Assembly: GCA_028289425.1 (NCBI GenBank)
Contig: JANQPL010000007.1
Location: forward strand, 1 to 64,000
Source of the DNA: Alphaproteobacteria bacterium
GTDB taxonomy: Bacteria > Pseudomonadota > Alphaproteobacteria > JANQMY01
Reading direction: 5' to 3'
Length of the DNA: 64,000 bases
In this document: piece after piece, positions 4,060 through 61,685 of the stretch
Layout of the letters: each line of letters begins with the position of its first letter
Numbering within the stretch: the first letter of the stretch is position 1
The notes under the pieces: model-generated
Seen by the model: the letters and a program-made list of their open reading frames with translations, nothing else
What the model was told of the DNA's origin: nothing
Database searches by the model: none
Program-made: the position numbers and the translations under genes

Positions 4060-6141
4060 ATGAACAAGCATCAAGCATGGGGCAAGGAGCATTCTCCATT
4101 TCACCCGGGCGAGCAAGAACTGCAACGCCGGACCGGTATGCGCGACCAAATGGAAAAGTTTGCGCGCCGCGTCGTTCGGCCGACCATGCCCGATCAGCAT
4201 CGGGCGTTTTATGGGCAGCTTCCGTATATCGTTGTCGGCAGTGTGGATGATGAAGGATGGCCTTGGGCGACTTTGCTGGCGGGCAAGCCCGGCTTCATTT
4301 CGTCGCCGGAAGCAGGCACGCTGCACATCAACGCCTCCCCCCTGTCCGCTGATCCCCTGCGTGCCGGACTGACCCTGGGCGCACCGCTGGGACTGTTGGG
4401 GATTGATCTGGCCACCCGTCGCCGCAACCGCGTGAATGTCCGCGTTGTGGAAGCCGGTACGAGCACCATCGCCCTGTCGGTCGATCAAGCATTCGGCAAT
4501 TGTCCTCAATATATTCAAACGCGCGATGTCCGCTTCATTCGCGAGCCGGGCACTCCGCCGACGGATGAAAACACGGAACACCTAACTACACTGGATGACG
4601 GTGCCCGCCATATGATCGAAAACGCGGATACGTTGTTTGTGTCAAGCTACATCCCAACGGAATCGAATGCGGATGTGGAGGGTGTGGACGTTTCTCACCG
4701 CGGTGGCCGACCCGGGTTTGTGAAAGTCGACGGCGACACCCTGACCGTTCCGGATTACTCGGGCAACTTTCACTTCAACACCCTTGGAAATTTCCTTGTA
4801 AATCCGAAAGCAGGTCTTGTGTTTGTCGATTTCTCGACCGGCGACCTTTTGATGCTGACGGGTACGGTCGAACTTCTCTTCGAAGATAATGCGGAGGTGC
4901 AAGCTTTTAAGGGCGCCGAGCGGGCCTGGCGGTTTACCCTGCATCGCGGGCTGCGCCTAAAAGATGCCTTGCCGTTGCGCTGGTCGTTTGAAGAGTTCTC
5001 GCCCAATTCCCTCATCACTGGCGATTGGAAAGAAACTGCCGCTACGCTCGCGGCCGAAGCCAAACGCGAGGAATGGCGGCCCTACCGCGTCGCTCGGATC
5101 GAAGACGAAAGTTCCGTCATCCGCTCGTTCTATTTGGAGCCCGCGGATGGGGACGGTCTGTTGCCTTATGAGGCGGGTCAGTACCTGACCCTTCGTGTCA
5201 CGCCGGCGGTCTGCGACAAACCGGTCATCCGCACCTATACACTCTCTTCCGCACCAGGGGATTCCCTGTACCGTATCTCCGTAAAACGGGAAGCGGACGG
5301 CGTGGTATCAAGCCATCTGCACGATACCCTAAAGCCAGGCGCGATCATCGAAGCGAAAGCACCACGCGGCAATTTCTACATCGATGCCCAGGAAAAACGC
5401 CCCGCGGTTTTGTTGGCGGGCGGTGTCGGGATCACGCCGATGATTTCCATGGCCCGGCATGTGGCGCGGGAAGGGTTCCGCACGCGTCATATCCGTCCCC
5501 TGACGATTTTTCATTCAGCGCAAACCACCGGCCAACGCGCTTTCTTCGATGAGTTCCGGGGCATGGCGTTCCGCACGGAAGAGGCCATTCGGTATTTCTC
5601 GTTTGTCGACCGGCCGGCGGAGAACGAAAAGCCCGGTGGAGACTTTAGCGGCGTCGGGTACATCACCGCAGACGTATTACGCCAGACGCTTGTCCTCGAT
5701 GACTATGATTTTTATCTGTGTGGCCCAAAACCCTTCATGCAGGCCCTTTACGATACGCTGCGCGGGCTGGGTGTGCGCGATGGGCGCATCTTCGCGGAAG
5801 CGTTCGGGCCGGCCTCTTTGGAACGGCAACCGGACACAGGGTCGGAACCCGCAGAGGTGCCGGCCGAAGAAGCAGAAGGCGCCGTCATCAAATTCGCCAA
5901 GTCGGGTTTTGAACAACGCTGGAGCAAAGGTGACGCCACCATTCTTGAGACAGCCGAGGCTCATGGCCTTGCCCCAGAATTTGGCTGCCGTAATGGGGCG
6001 TGCGGGAGCTGCGCGGTGAAACTCAAAGCAGGCGTGGTGGCTTACCGTTCACAGCCGACGGGCGCGCACAAAGACGACGAGGTACTGATCTGTTGCGCCG
6101 TGCCGGGTGAAGGCACCGACACGGTGGAAATCGATCTCTAG
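4060..6141 (+). CDS. PNPOx-like / ferredoxin-NADP reductase / 2Fe-2S ferredoxin fusion oxidoreductase
   Basis: A 693-residue three-part redox protein. Residues about 45-310 form a pyridoxamine-phosphate-oxidase-like split barrel (IVVGSVDDEGWPWATLLAGKPGF). Residues about 340-590 are a flavin/NAD reductase, with the FAD motif RTYTLSS and nucleotide-binding GGVGITPMISMARH. The C-terminal 90 residues are a plant-type 2Fe-2S domain with the GCRNGACGSCAV cysteine cluster and a final Cys in EVLICCAVP. It should pass electrons from NAD(P)H via flavin to the iron-sulfur centre and perhaps to the split-barrel site. GGGAGG six bases before the ATG supports the start. It follows the GST and precedes the DUF1348 gene in one probable operon. 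The physiological acceptor is unknown. Confidence 0.93.
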   Translation: MNKHQAWGKEHSPFHPGEQELQRRTGMRDQMEKFARRVVRPTMPDQHRAFYGQLPYIVVGSVDDEGWPWATLLAGKPGFISSPEAGTLHINASPLSADPLRAGLTLGAPLGLLGIDLATRRRNRVNVRVVEAGTSTIALSVDQAFGNCPQYIQTRDVRFIREPGTPPTDENTEHLTTLDDGARHMIENADTLFVSSYIPTESNADVEGVDVSHRGGRPGFVKVDGDTLTVPDYSGNFHFNTLGNFLVNPKAGLVFVDFSTGDLLMLTGTVELLFEDNAEVQAFKGAERAWRFTLHRGLRLKDALPLRWSFEEFSPNSLITGDWKETAATLAAEAKREEWRPYRVARIEDESSVIRSFYLEPADGDGLLPYEAGQYLTLRVTPAVCDKPVIRTYTLSSAPGDSLYRISVKREADGVVSSHLHDTLKPGAIIEAKAPRGNFYIDAQEKRPAVLLAGGVGITPMISMARHVAREGFRTRHIRPLTIFHSAQTTGQRAFFDEFRGMAFRTEEAIRYFSFVDRPAENEKPGGDFSGVGYITADVLRQTLVLDDYDFYLCGPKPFMQALYDTLRGLGVRDGRIFAEAFGPASLERQPDTGSEPAEVPAEEAEGAVIKFAKSGFEQRWSKGDATILETAEAHGLAPEFGCRNGACGSCAVKLKAGVVAYRSQPTGAHKDDEVLICCAVPGEGTDTVEIDL

Positions 6142-57251: not shown

Positions 57252-57701
57252 TTATTGACGATTGGGCCGGTCGGGAGAGATCTCGTCCGGCCCAAAATCT
57301 TCCACGAGCCTGAACCGCTCGCAAACCAGCATCATCTCCGGATCAAAGCCCCCATTTCGTTCGAAGTAGGCGCGGTGATCATTGCGCCAGCCTTGATGGG
57401 TGTCGTTCTCTCCCTCGGCAAGGGCGAAATCTACCGGTACGTCGCAGAAGCGCATGAGGTGAACCGCGGTGGTTTCGATCACCAGGGCGGGGGTGCCGTC
57501 CCAATTGAGGGCGATGTCTCGGCGGCCGACTTCAGGCAGGGGTTCGCCCTCGGCCTCATAAGCCCGCGCCGCCTCGCACGTGGCCGTCTTTTTTCCGGAC
57601 CGCACCAGTGCCAACAGCTCGGCACACAATGTTTCGCTGTCGCCGAAGACAAATGTGGTCGCGCCAGGATAGCGGTGTTTGAGGTCGTCAACCGTTGCCA
57701 T
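57252..57701 (-). CDS. ASCH domain-containing protein
   Basis: A 149-residue protein with the PUA-like ASCH fold: FVFGDSETLCAELLALVRSGKKTATCEAARAYEAEGEPLPEVGRRDIALNWDGTPALVIETTAV. ASCH proteins are thought to bind RNA or modified nucleosides, and some hydrolyse acetylcytidine. It lies three bases after the stop of the AhpC/TSA-like gene on the same strand, so it is the last gene of a five-gene minus-strand run that begins with the TIR genes. Confidence 0.88.
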   Translation of the reverse strand: MATVDDLKHRYPGATTFVFGDSETLCAELLALVRSGKKTATCEAARAYEAEGEPLPEVGRRDIALNWDGTPALVIETTAVHLMRFCDVPVDFALAEGENDTHQGWRNDHRAYFERNGGFDPEMMLVCERFRLVEDFGPDEISPDRPNRQ

Positions 57702-57704
57702 GTG

Positions 57705-58832
57705 TCACGCGCTGTCGGGTTCCCCTTCGGGCACGTTCTGGAATTCACGGTTTACTTCAGCGATGCCCGGCCAAACGAACGCCGCCCAGGCGGCGAGCGC
57801 TAGCCCCACCCACAGTGTCGGCAGAAACGCAAACGCCGCGATCCACAGGGCAACAAAACCGATCAGACGCGGGAACATGTTTATGGGTTTGGCGCTGGGT
57901 GCGTCGTCGTCACGCCCCAGCGGAAACGTCTTGGGTCGGATGAACCAGCCATGGGCCAAAAGCAATGAAACGAAGAGCGGCCAGGGCGGCGGATTGGTAT
58001 CCATTTCCGCTGTGTGGTCCAGCGGCGCATCCTCCATCGGTCCGTCAAGGCGCGACTTGACCTGCGACCAGACATATTCCGGGGTCGGACGCTCGACGGC
58101 GCCTCCCACATTTTGGCGGGTGGGCCGGCAGCGCCAGCGGTAAAGCACACGGCTGTCTTTGGCCAGCGCCAAGACGCCCGGCTGAAAATACCCTTTGGGG
58201 TGGGCGAGCCAAGTTCGCTGATTGAGCACCCGTGTCGCTGTGTTCACGAACAGGTCAGTCCAGCCGCGTTTGCGGCAGGTGTCGAGAATCTCGTGGTGAG
58301 GATCACCTGTTGAGGTGAAACCGAAGTCCCAGCTTTCCTGCGCTTCCGTCGCCAAGCTTTGGGTTTCGCTGGTGATGGCGAAAATCTCGCCTCCGGCCGC
58401 GCGGATTTCTTCCACGACACCGGCTTTCGTGTAGCCCCGCAACTCGGAGCGGCAGGGCGGTCACCAGAAGCCCCGGTAAAACACAAGCACAATGAACTTG
58501 TGCTTCGCAAGTTGCTCGTCAATCCAAGGGGTGCGAACACCTTCCGGCGGGTCCAGGTGGTGGGGGATGAGCGCTTCTTCGGCCGCAACGCCGGCAATTT
58601 GAAACCCGTCCCCATGCTTCTGGATGCGCACTTGTTCGCGGGAACACATGTCGTTTTCGCACAGAACCAAACCCAGCTCTGTCGCCTCGCCGTCCTCCGG
58701 TTGCCAATTGGGGTCGGGATCCACAAGGCCTGTCAGCTTGTAAGAGGCGTTGCGCTCTTTGTTGACCCAGGCTAAGGCGGCATCCGCCGCGGGCTGCAGC
58801 TCTTTGGGAATGTCTTCAATAACAGTCGGCAT
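57705..58832 (-). CDS. AhpC/TSA-like redoxin with in-frame TGA (candidate selenoprotein, UxxC)
   Basis: Read through, a 375-residue thioredoxin-fold redoxin. Two open parts (58464-58832 and 57705-58460) lie in the same frame, separated only by TGA at 58461-58463. The text around it is FYRGFW, the stop, then PPCRSELRGY. The AhpC/TSA_2 consensus is FYRGxWCPxCxxEL, so the TGA replaces the first catalytic Cys, giving a UxxC motif if read as selenocysteine. Just downstream a hairpin (GCCCUGC with GCGGGGC, 58458-58434) with a G-containing loop fits a bacterial SECIS. The rest is intact: PGVLALAKDSRVLYRWRCRPTR and two C-terminal membrane helices. GGAG precedes the ATG at 58832. A nonsense mutation of a Cys codon is the alternative. 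Confidence 0.8.
58434..58458 (-). promoter_or_regulatory. candidate SECIS stem-loop after the TGA
   Basis: Minus-strand RNA just after the UGA codon: GCCCUGC (58458-58452) pairs with GCGGGGC (58440-58434), giving 7 bp with one U-G wobble and an 11-base loop holding CGAG. The loop lies about 10-20 bases beyond the UGA, close to the distance needed for SelB recruitment. Alternative pairing CCGC/GCGG is also possible. Structure by eye only. Confidence 0.45.
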
Positions 58833-58898: not shown

Positions 58899-59750
58899 TT
58901 ATCCCCGACGCCAGCGCCAAAGTCTGCGGACGATCGCGAAAATCACATGTAAGGCAACCGTTATGAGAAACGCCAAGAGGGTGATGTTTATCGGGATTCG
59001 GTCGACTCTTATACTCGCGGCTTCCTCTGCCGTTAGGCCCAAGTTCAAGAAATAGTATTCAATTCCGAAATACGCGCATGCTGCATACAATGCGGAAACG
59101 ACCAAGTATGCCGGCAGTGCACTGATCAATGACCGATTGCCCTGCACAAAGCGCGTGACCATGCGCCAGATAAACACGGGAAAGCCCGCGGCTAAGGTGG
59201 CCTGCATCAAAGACGAAACGACAAACATCGGTTCCTCAACGGGGATGTCCAGCGCAAGCACGAAAACGAGGCCAGCGATCCCCAGCACCCAGAGCAAATC
59301 CCGCCATCCAAAAAGTAGAAATCCGCGAGAAACGGGGGCCGGCGCGTCGGCTATGGGTTTGGACGTCAATTTGTCGATCTGTTCCTGGATACGGGACGCG
59401 AGCTCGCTCACTTTGCTGAGCGGGTCGGGGTACAGGTTTACCCATTCACGATCCGTCAGCTCGTACAGAAGGTGGCCTTCCGGCTCCGCGTCTTCGATCC
59501 GAACAGGCAAGACCGGCTTGTTTAGGGAGTCGGCTAAGGCCAATTCCTTTCGCAACTCAGGCGAACGGTTGGCGGCGTCCGAGAACAAGACCACCAACAG
59601 AAACGATTCCTCAAGAGCCTTTGCAGTCTGACCGGTTTCGCCTTCTTCCCGAAAGAATACGGCAAAACCTTGCTGGCTCAACGCAGCCGACAATTGCCGG
59701 CCCAGCTCACGATCTTCCAGGGCGCAGGTGAGGTACAGGTCGTACCGCAT
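58899..59750 (-). CDS. TIR domain transmembrane protein (third of three)
   Basis: A 283-residue protein with an N-terminal TIR domain (about 1-130: DLYLTCALEDRELGRQLSAALSQQGFAVFF and LLVVLFSDAANRSPELRKELALA). The Glu after the Ser/Asn motif sits where TIR NADases keep their catalytic Glu. The C-terminal half has four transmembrane helices (WVLGIAGLVFVLALDI, ATLAAGFPVFIWRMV, ALPAYLVVSALYAACAYFG, and LLAFLITVALHVIFAIV). It is the last of three paralogs with identical layout, three bases after the second. TIR-membrane proteins occur in antiphage defence and signalling. Confidence 0.87.
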   Translation of the reverse strand: MRYDLYLTCALEDRELGRQLSAALSQQGFAVFFREEGETGQTAKALEESFLLVVLFSDAANRSPELRKELALADSLNKPVLPVRIEDAEPEGHLLYELTDREWVNLYPDPLSKVSELASRIQEQIDKLTSKPIADAPAPVSRGFLLFGWRDLLWVLGIAGLVFVLALDIPVEEPMFVVSSLMQATLAAGFPVFIWRMVTRFVQGNRSLISALPAYLVVSALYAACAYFGIEYYFLNLGLTAEEAASIRVDRIPINITLLAFLITVALHVIFAIVRRLWRWRRG

Positions 59751-59753
59751 CGT

Positions 59754-60641
59754 CTACGCTCTTGCCCGGCGACGTATGGCTTGGGCTGCCAGTAATCCGC
59801 GAAGAAAGATGTGCAGGAGGAAGGAGAGGCCAAGCGTGGCAGTGAATAATGCGCGCGTTATAATCTGCCGGTGTTCTTCCGCTGTGAGGTTCTCCAGTGA
59901 CGTTGTTGGGTACGAACCATAAGTCACAAAATGAAGTGCAGAAACCGCCACACCCAATAGCAGGTAAGTGGGCAGGGCACTCAAATAACTACGATTCGCT
60001 TTCGCAAACCGATAGATGATGCGCACAAGAATGACCGGATAGGCGCGAAAGATAACGTGTCCGAAGATTGGCGTCAGAGCTGTGACAAGGGGACCTTCCG
60101 GTAGCCTGAATGACAAAATGAAGAAGAAGAGCGTTACGCCGATAAGCCAATCGGCGTCGCCCCGATTAAAGGGAAACAACCCCAACTTAGGTTGGAATCC
60201 CGTGCGCGATACGGCGACCGGAGTGTCATCAGCGGTCTGCGCGGCTTCGTTGAGCGCATTCAAAAGTGTTGCCGCAAACGTGTCCATCTGGCCGATGGGG
60301 TCGGCGGCCAAGTCGATCCAATCTCGATCGGTCAGCGCCAACAGCAATGGCCCGCGGGGTTGGCTGCTATCGATTTTGACGGGAATGATTGGAATATCGA
60401 GGCGTTTCGCAACGGCGATTTCTTTGCGTACCTGACGGGACGCGTTGGCCGCCTTGGAAAACAAAATGACGAGACAACGGGACTGCTCGAGATTCTTAAC
60501 GATCGTATCGCGCCAATCGGCGCCGCCTTCGATTTGGGTGTCGTGCCAAACACTGAGGCCCTGATCGGCAAATGATGCAGCAGCGAAGTTGGCGGTTTGT
60601 CGATCCTTGCGCGCATAGCTGATGAACACGTCGTAGGCCAT
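59754..60641 (-). CDS. TIR domain transmembrane protein (second of three)
   Basis: A 295-residue TIR protein: DVFISYARKDRQTANFAAASFADQGLSVWHDTQIEGGADWRDTIVKNLEQSRCLVILFSKAANASRQVRKEIAVAKRLDIPIIPVKID is a textbook bacterial TIR with BB-loop and the conserved Glu. The motif ALTDRDWIDLAADP is shared with its neighbours. Four transmembrane helices fill residues about 165-285. Three-base gaps separate it from both flanking TIR genes, implying one message. Of the three, this copy is closest to the canonical TIR sequence. Confidence 0.9.
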   Translation of the reverse strand: MAYDVFISYARKDRQTANFAAASFADQGLSVWHDTQIEGGADWRDTIVKNLEQSRCLVILFSKAANASRQVRKEIAVAKRLDIPIIPVKIDSSQPRGPLLLALTDRDWIDLAADPIGQMDTFAATLLNALNEAAQTADDTPVAVSRTGFQPKLGLFPFNRGDADWLIGVTLFFFILSFRLPEGPLVTALTPIFGHVIFRAYPVILVRIIYRFAKANRSYLSALPTYLLLGVAVSALHFVTYGSYPTTSLENLTAEEHRQIITRALFTATLGLSFLLHIFLRGLLAAQAIRRRARA

Positions 60642-60644
60642 GTG

Positions 60645-61544
60645 CTACCTCGCCGGCAAAAGGCGCTGGCGGAAAGCAAATGCAATGAAATAGCCGCGCA
60701 TGAGAATGTGCGAAATCGTGCCGATCGCAAAATTCAAGACGATAGCCCCACGAGCAATGTTGAGTAGGGTTCGAAGGTGGTCGCGCCCCACCTCTGTTGG
60801 ACCTAGGAACGGGTCGTAGGCGATGTAAGCCGAAATGCCGCTCAAGATGGACAGAAGACCATAAACGGGAATTGCCCGGCCGAGCTTCTGGTTGGCTGTC
60901 ACAAACCGGAAAGCAAATCGAATGATCAGGACGGGGATGCCCACAAGAGCTAGACTCAACGAAAGGTTCTCAGCCAAGAAGTCTAAGAAGTTCCATTGTT
61001 CCACCGACAACATCAGCGTGAAGATGCCGGTAAACGCTGCCACCCAAACCAAGTCGGATGCACGAAGTGGAAAGAAAGGCAATTTCACCGGCGGACCGAG
61101 CTCTTCGGCCAACTGTTTGGCTTCGTCGCTGTCTTTGCCGGATTGCTCCGCTGTGCGAACGACGCCCAGCAAGTCCGACAGCGTGTTCACAAGGTCGTCC
61201 ATTTTCGAAGCGGGATTTGGATGCAGCGGTACCCAGTTGCGCGTACCCAGCTCATAGAGCATTTCTCCGCGCGGGCGCACATTTTCAATCAGGATCGGAA
61301 TAACCGGAATACCTTCGCGGTCCGCCAGCGCAACCTCTTGAAGCAACTGATCGGAGTCATTGCTCGATCTGGAAAACAAAATGACCAGCAGCCGGGAGGT
61401 GGAAAGAGCGGTCGCGGCCGTACGGGAGGTTTGCGCCAACCCCTCGTACCAAACCGTCAACCCTTGCGCTCGAAGCGCGTCAGCGCATTGTTCGGCAAGC
61501 GCCTGTTGGCGCCGGCCATAGCTTAGATAGATGTCATACGCCAT
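60645..61544 (-). CDS. TIR domain transmembrane protein (first of three)
   Basis: A 299-residue TIR protein: DIYLSYGRRQQALAEQCADALRAQGLTVWYEGLAQTSRTAATALSTSRLLVILFSRSSNDSDQLLQEVALADREGIPVIPILI. The conserved Glu (QEVALA) and the LGTRNWVPLHPNP motif match the other two copies. Four transmembrane helices follow (about 170-290). AAGG eight bases before the ATG at 61544 decides the start over a longer frame. It opens the run TIR, TIR, TIR, redoxin, ASCH. A partner NAD-binding or sensor gene, such as a SAVED, Thoeris ThsA or SIR2 effector, is not present. Confidence 0.88.
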   Translation of the reverse strand: MAYDIYLSYGRRQQALAEQCADALRAQGLTVWYEGLAQTSRTAATALSTSRLLVILFSRSSNDSDQLLQEVALADREGIPVIPILIENVRPRGEMLYELGTRNWVPLHPNPASKMDDLVNTLSDLLGVVRTAEQSGKDSDEAKQLAEELGPPVKLPFFPLRASDLVWVAAFTGIFTLMLSVEQWNFLDFLAENLSLSLALVGIPVLIIRFAFRFVTANQKLGRAIPVYGLLSILSGISAYIAYDPFLGPTEVGRDHLRTLLNIARGAIVLNFAIGTISHILMRGYFIAFAFRQRLLPAR

Positions 61545-61685
61545 TGCCCCACCTTGCCGCTCTCTCTTGCGAGCCTCCCCGGCGGCCAACACAAAACATT
61601 GTGCAACCTATCCTATTGTGATCGCGGCAAAAGTCGAGGTTTCGGTGTTCAAGCGGTTGCAGTGAGCGGCGGGTCTCGGGCCCGT

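Follow-up and report, generated by a model that had tools for sequence, protein, structure and literature searches.

Does a single in-frame TGA in a redoxin-like gene encode selenocysteine (Sec), or has the gene lost its function? This question is raised by a minus-strand locus in the window, which here denotes the whole 64,000-nucleotide stretch that was analysed and which belongs to genome G000 (5.4 Mb, 99.75% complete). The gene is almost certainly not broken but codes for a redox enzyme that contains selenium, and the TGA at codon 124 can be assigned as a Sec codon as well as sequence comparison is able to show. The following features are central to the argument:

57705–58832, minus strand: putative selenoprotein gene, 375 codons plus stop, with one Sec-UGA read through
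58461–58463, minus strand: predicted Sec codon TGA, residue 124, opening the UPPC motif; Cys (TGT/TGC) is found there in the relatives L046, L037 and L083
58452–58454, minus strand: codon of Cys127, the second residue of UxxC, which is invariant and is proposed to be the resolving Cys

Reading frame and Sec codon

Recomputation on the minus strand bore out the earlier description of an otherwise open frame split by one TGA (58461–58463). The frame begins with an ATG at 58832, preceded by a GGAG about 7 nt upstream, and ends with a TGA at 57705–57707. Its sole internal TGA is codon 124, which lies in the context FYRGFW-U-PPCRSEL. The translation reads MPTVIED...FYRGFW-U-PPCRSELRGY...FQNVPEGEPDSA. 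Under the standard code, the gene falls apart into two ORFs of 123 aa (58461–58832) and 245 aa (57705–58442), which is the division that the earlier note expected of gene finders. Two Pfam models match across the TGA, namely AhpC-TSA with 35.2 bits (cut-off 26) and Redoxin with 27.4 bits (cut-off 26.6).

Conservation of the TGA in relatives

Codon 124 was read in 38 full-length or near full-length members of the family. It is TGA in 37 of these, including the window, and TGT in one (L046, genome G574). The TGA-bearing members belong to Acidobacteriota, Gammaproteobacteria and many Myxococcota, and the same TGA recurs in relatives of at least three phyla. Scanning genome contigs revealed homologs in three MAGs (Bryobacterales, Gammaproteobacteria and Myxococcota), and a genome search added one from the same genus, with 69% identity; all of them carry TGA at the same codon. 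Many of the homologs stem from metagenome-assembled genomes. When 331 sampled Myxococcota genomes were searched with a profile, 30 matched the full-length family, in some cases as fragments and in others with two or three copies. Elsewhere the family is rare: it occurs in 1 of 347 Acidobacteriota genomes and in 1 of 369 genomes of the class to which the gammaproteobacterial host belongs. Within the window's own class, only G000 and G001 have full-length members among 385 genomes, and G148 contains a short Cys relative.

The UPPC motif is invariant across the aligned members, except for C in place of U in L046. This TGT member is nested in a well-supported group of eight whose others all have TGA, so its Cys is most simply explained as derived. 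It had been suggested that Cys homologs be examined for TGC or TGT at the position of the TGA, and this is what they carry: TGT in L046, and TGC or TGT in the short relatives L037 and L083 (FRG-x-WCPWC). Genomes of the window's class also contain redoxins of other architecture with FRGxW-TGA-PYC or YRGSW-TGA-PYC (L032, L033, L035), which are likely further Sec redoxins.

A conserved bSECIS hairpin

Directly downstream of the TGA, a short hairpin is formed:

58434–58450, minus strand: candidate bSECIS hairpin, 6-bp stem GCUCCG/CGGGGC, loop AGUUG (58440–58444) starting 16 nt past the UGA

The conserved stem pairs 58450–58445 with 58439–58434. In all TGA members, a GCnnCG-AGUUR-CGnnGC stem-loop starts 10 nt past the TGA, with one GU for GC in L063. 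In an alignment of 29 sequences, 99.4% of cells are paired, the sole unpaired cell being that of the TGT member L046, and sliding the register by 1–3 columns leaves only 29–62% paired. Seven of eight further TGA members are fully paired, with one mismatch in L077; the hairpin of L085 is fully paired.

Hairpin cells changed on both sides number 22, against a mean of 5.5 in shuffled alignments, and none of 500 shuffles was as high. Two pairs covary (58448 with 58436 and 58447 with 58437), and the pair counts and pair-type counts are unexceptional (187 and 237 of 500 shuffles as high, respectively); the strength of the covariation lies in the consistency with which these two pairs change together. 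Since the changes are visible in the protein, where a single residue varies between Ser, Leu, Arg, Pro and Ala, they cannot be put down to codon constraint. RNAalifold, unprompted, returned the identical six pairs. Furthermore, the Leu codon in the loop is TTR without exception, although TTR makes up just 65 of the 705 other Leu codons of the family genes, a bias whose probability ignores relatedness and serves as a guide only. The family thus documents strong covariation in a short bSECIS whose loop is AGUU.

The published bSECIS model specifies a loop of 3–9 nt, a stem of 4–16 bp, a G in the first two loop positions, a distance of 16–37 nt from the UGA and a minimum free energy of at most −7.5 (PMC13188914). 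The window hairpin agrees with this model, having a 5-nt loop with G at position 2, 6 bp and −9.7 kcal/mol, and its 16-nt spacing is at the lower limit. Loop and spacing alone are no evidence, since a pattern search without the stem gave two matches in the window, equal to chance; it is pairing and conservation that count.

The earlier note had assigned the SECIS to the pairing 58458–58434. This structure is indeed stable and is exactly the minimum-energy fold of the lone window RNA strand, but it is not conserved: 80% of its cells pair across the 29 sequences versus 81% in shuffles, and it was rejected in favour of the inner alternative, 58450–58434. Only with the first 13 nt, at the ribosome, constrained to be single-stranded is the conserved hairpin the lowest-energy structure of the window sequence.

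Selenocysteine machinery of the host

All four components of the Sec machinery that the earlier note proposed to look for are present in G000, where tRNA-Sec (selC), selD, selA and selB lie together in a single cluster on contig C19. Cut-offs are exceeded by tRNA-Sec (83.2 bits; gathering score 47), selA (580.7 bits) and selB (299.3 bits; cut-off 242). The fourth gene, selD, scores 368 bits and has its own in-frame TGA at the UxxK motif (SAG-U-AGK). It is located at L018 5597, and an ORF caller choosing the TTG at 5624 would lose the SelD N-terminus. The cluster is adjoined by a gene for the known AhpD-related (seleno)protein NF041238 (L018 3286–4389, minus strand), which matches with 403 bits when the TGA at CFY-U-T is read through. 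Beside the cluster, there is also a second Sec redoxin gene with the motif FYRGHW-TGA-PYC (L018 4417–5211, minus strand; G000:C19:380416–381210). In view of the in-frame TGA codons in selD, the NF041238 gene and the second redoxin gene, Sec is apparently used in at least three further genes of the organism.

The machinery also accompanies the family elsewhere. tRNA-Sec was found in every family host tested (G000, G001, G385, G386, G387, G574 and G579), including the host of the Cys form, G574, with 64.8 bits. At the threshold used, no tRNA-Sec was found in G1123, which contains a short Cys relative only. selA is present in 29 of the 30 Myxococcota genomes with the family compared to 209 of 331 overall (Fisher p 1.3e-5, to be taken as a guide only because the genomes compared are related). 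The sole exception is the G579 assembly, in which tRNA-Sec scores 71.5 bits.

Architecture of the encoded protein

Three regions can be distinguished in the predicted protein:

58557–58832, minus strand: N-terminal domain, residues 1–92, with invariant Cys58 and Cys63 (C-x4-C in the window, wider spacing in some members)
58032–58541, minus strand: peroxiredoxin/redoxin-fold domain, residues 98–267, assigned by Pfam AhpC-TSA and Redoxin and by fold match
57738–57887, minus strand: predicted C-terminal membrane helical hairpin, residues 316–365, based on hydropathy and AlphaFold helices 316–336 and 339–365

The AlphaFold model (pLDDT 85.7, pTM 0.76) shows the N-terminal domain as one helix and four strands. 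Modelled alone, this domain reaches a pLDDT of 80, and its best Foldseek match, which is not a confident one, has an E-value of 0.34, to cystatin/monellin-like folds. The redoxin domain matches Bcp4 and AhpC with a Z of about 15. The two C-terminal helices coincide with the only long hydrophobic stretch of the protein. The invariant residues include Sec/Cys124, Cys127, Cys58 and Cys63.

PF00578 is matched by all 37 aligned members at an E-value of 0.01 or better. Only weak ResA, PDI and thioredoxin matches were obtained when solved structures were searched by sequence, and the weak alignments to PDI and ResA place Sec on the first Cys of CxxC. The earlier proposal that the TGA replaces the catalytic Cys of an AhpC/TSA protein is therefore retained in one part only: the TGA does occupy the Cys position of the Cys homologs, but it aligns with the first Cys of a ResA/PDI-type CxxC and not with the peroxidatic Cys of AhpC. 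When AhpC FTFVCPTEL is aligned with WUPPCRSEL by eye, the peroxidatic Cys presumably falls on Cys127 and the Thr of the peroxiredoxin TxxC on Sec. In NCBIfam, no curated cut-off is reached by the window; the only matches are to SelL_rel and ResA-like families, far below their cut-offs, and these are also the only families matched by the 37 members at an E-value of 0.01.

Proposed mechanism and alternative explanations

The locus is very probably one selenoprotein gene in which UGA is read as Sec by means of the downstream stem-loop, yielding a membrane-anchored Prx-like oxidoreductase. Sequence comparison supports the Sec codon, the SECIS, the machinery, the predicted fold and the invariant cysteines. 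From there on, we infer the catalytic order, membrane topology, electron relay and substrate, as well as all function beyond "redoxin". SelB and Sec-tRNA(Sec) would decode the UGA at codon 124, guided by the stem-loop, the AGUU loop of which starts 16 nt 3' of this codon. The product would be a membrane-anchored thiol/selenol oxidoreductase, the catalytic domain of which probably faces the cytoplasm, as suggested by the basic loop before the C-terminal hairpin and the short hairpin turn. Judging from fold and motif, Sec124 would act as the nucleophile on a disulfide or peroxide substrate, and Cys127 would resolve the intermediate as a selenylsulfide. The Cys58/Cys63 pair may relay electrons to or from the selenylsulfide bond, thereby linking it to a cellular reductant.

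Possible, if doubtful, is a selenoprotein that is a true peroxidase of the peroxiredoxin type, in which peroxide is reduced at Sec124 or Cys127. The AhpC-TSA match in Pfam and the peroxiredoxins among the fold matches, where they rank best, are in line with such an activity. However, the UxxC motif occupies the position of the Trx/ResA CxxC, and the UXXC of Prx-like proteins has been set against the TXXU of Sec-containing Prx (PMC1088965).

It is quite unlikely that the UGA serves as a regulated stop, with readthrough tuned by selenium and a role for the 123-aa fragment as well as for the full protein. The fragment does comprise the whole N-terminal domain and the start of the redoxin domain. 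Yet it would end within the redoxin fold with an incomplete UxxC, and there is no hint that it has a function. A degree of termination is normal at Sec codons.

A Sec codon is far better supported than a decaying gene whose Cys codon has mutated to TGA, for which there is very little room left. TGA is one base away from TGT and TGC, and the Cys forms do have Cys at this position. Against this, the same TGA is shared by the window and 36 further full-length relatives across phyla, down to about 41–45% identity, and nearly all of them lack further stops in the conserved frame; L048 has a TAG close to the 3' end. The covarying hairpin likewise speaks against decay. Moreover, the frame 3' of the TGA is under purifying selection: comparison of the window with its genus relative gives a dN/dS of about 0.21 for this part (dN 0.24, dS 1.15) and of 0.06 for the part 5' of the TGA, in which dS has reached saturation. 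Decay of the downstream frame in close relatives, named beforehand as an observation that would count against Sec, is not seen, and same-genus as well as other-phylum relatives keep the TGA. A sequencing or assembly error, in favour of which nothing was found, is even more improbable, given that the stop is also present in an independent same-genus genome and in many unrelated assemblies.

Relation to known selenoproteins

With PF00578 above its gathering score and a UxxC motif, the selenoprotein gene belongs to a broad kind that is already known. Reports of Prx-like UxxC selenoproteins go back to 2005 (PMC1088965); these proteins were found to be abundant in GOS (PMC2398784) and are listed in a 2026 catalogue (PMC13188914). 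The window protein shares with these Prx-like thiol:disulfide oxidoreductases (PF00578, UxxC/UxxU; Sargasso Sea, GOS) the redoxin fold, Sec as the first residue of UxxC and a bSECIS just 3' (PMC1088965, PMC2398784, PMC13188914). It differs from them by the N-terminal domain with two invariant Cys and the C-terminal membrane hairpin, conserved over about 373 positions, and by the near absence of full-length Cys forms.

Other groups show partial resemblance. SelL and SelL-related proteins (NCBIfam NF040769) have a Prx-like redoxin core, and 33 of the 37 members match the profile weakly. SelL contains two Sec residues in UxxU, in contrast to the one Sec (UxxC) of the window protein, with Cys second in every aligned member. 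Membership in SelL was rejected, as the score is 23.6 bits against the NF040769 cut-off of 120. The W-C-x-x-C of the ResA/TlpA thiol-disulfide oxidoreductases aligns with W-U-P-P-C. ResA is anchored at the N-terminus, whereas the window protein is predicted to be anchored C-terminally, has Sec for Cys and an extra N-terminal domain, and scores 15.7 bits to NF002854. A peroxiredoxin-like cd02970 selenoprotein has what we take to be a similar motif style, FYRGxW-U/C-P. That protein is UxxS (PMC13188914), unlike the UxxC of the window, whose architecture is longer. In typical Sec peroxiredoxins, Sec takes the peroxidatic position of a TxxU motif, as opposed to the W-U-P-P-C of the window protein, in which Sec matches the leading Cys of CxxC in ResA and PDI. 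Finally, the second Sec redoxin of G000 shares the motif and the SECIS layout (stem UCGCUG/CAGCGA, loop AGUUG), but it is a 265-residue open frame with N-terminal hydrophobic segment(s) and only 29% identity over 70 residues.

The apparent novelty lies in the subfamily architecture, which combines an N-terminal C-x4-C domain, a UxxC domain and a predicted membrane hairpin with few Cys forms and no curated model. On account of this architecture and of the lack of any NCBIfam family near its cut-off in the window, the family is called a new subfamily of a known kind, adding a domain architecture to the bacterial selenoproteome. Single members may sit unlabelled in earlier metagenome sets. A gene finder that applies the standard code would split the gene in every carrier genome, and the family is thus likely hidden in annotation. 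Standard homology methods rely on TGA/Cys pairs, and full-length Cys forms are almost absent here; the authors of deep-Sep noted that selenoproteins without Cys homologs may be missed (PMC12013277). More tentatively, this could be an undescribed subfamily with Sec as its ancestral and nearly obligate residue (37 Sec against a single derived Cys), whose membrane hairpin and N-terminal Cys pair act together as an internal electron relay to UxxC. Such a protein would constitute a self-contained membrane-bound selenol reductase of an uncatalogued kind.

Gene neighbourhood

An ASCH-domain gene (57252–57701, minus strand) begins 3 nt past the stop of the selenoprotein gene. An operon of the two was considered and rejected: in the sister genome, the corresponding position lacks the ASCH gene, and an RPE65 gene is directly next. 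On the other side, three successive TIR_2-domain genes (58899–61592, minus strand) are found in an order that is kept in the same-genus genome (L079). The second of the three has an additional match to ThsB_TIR, and the trio possibly has a role in signalling or defence.
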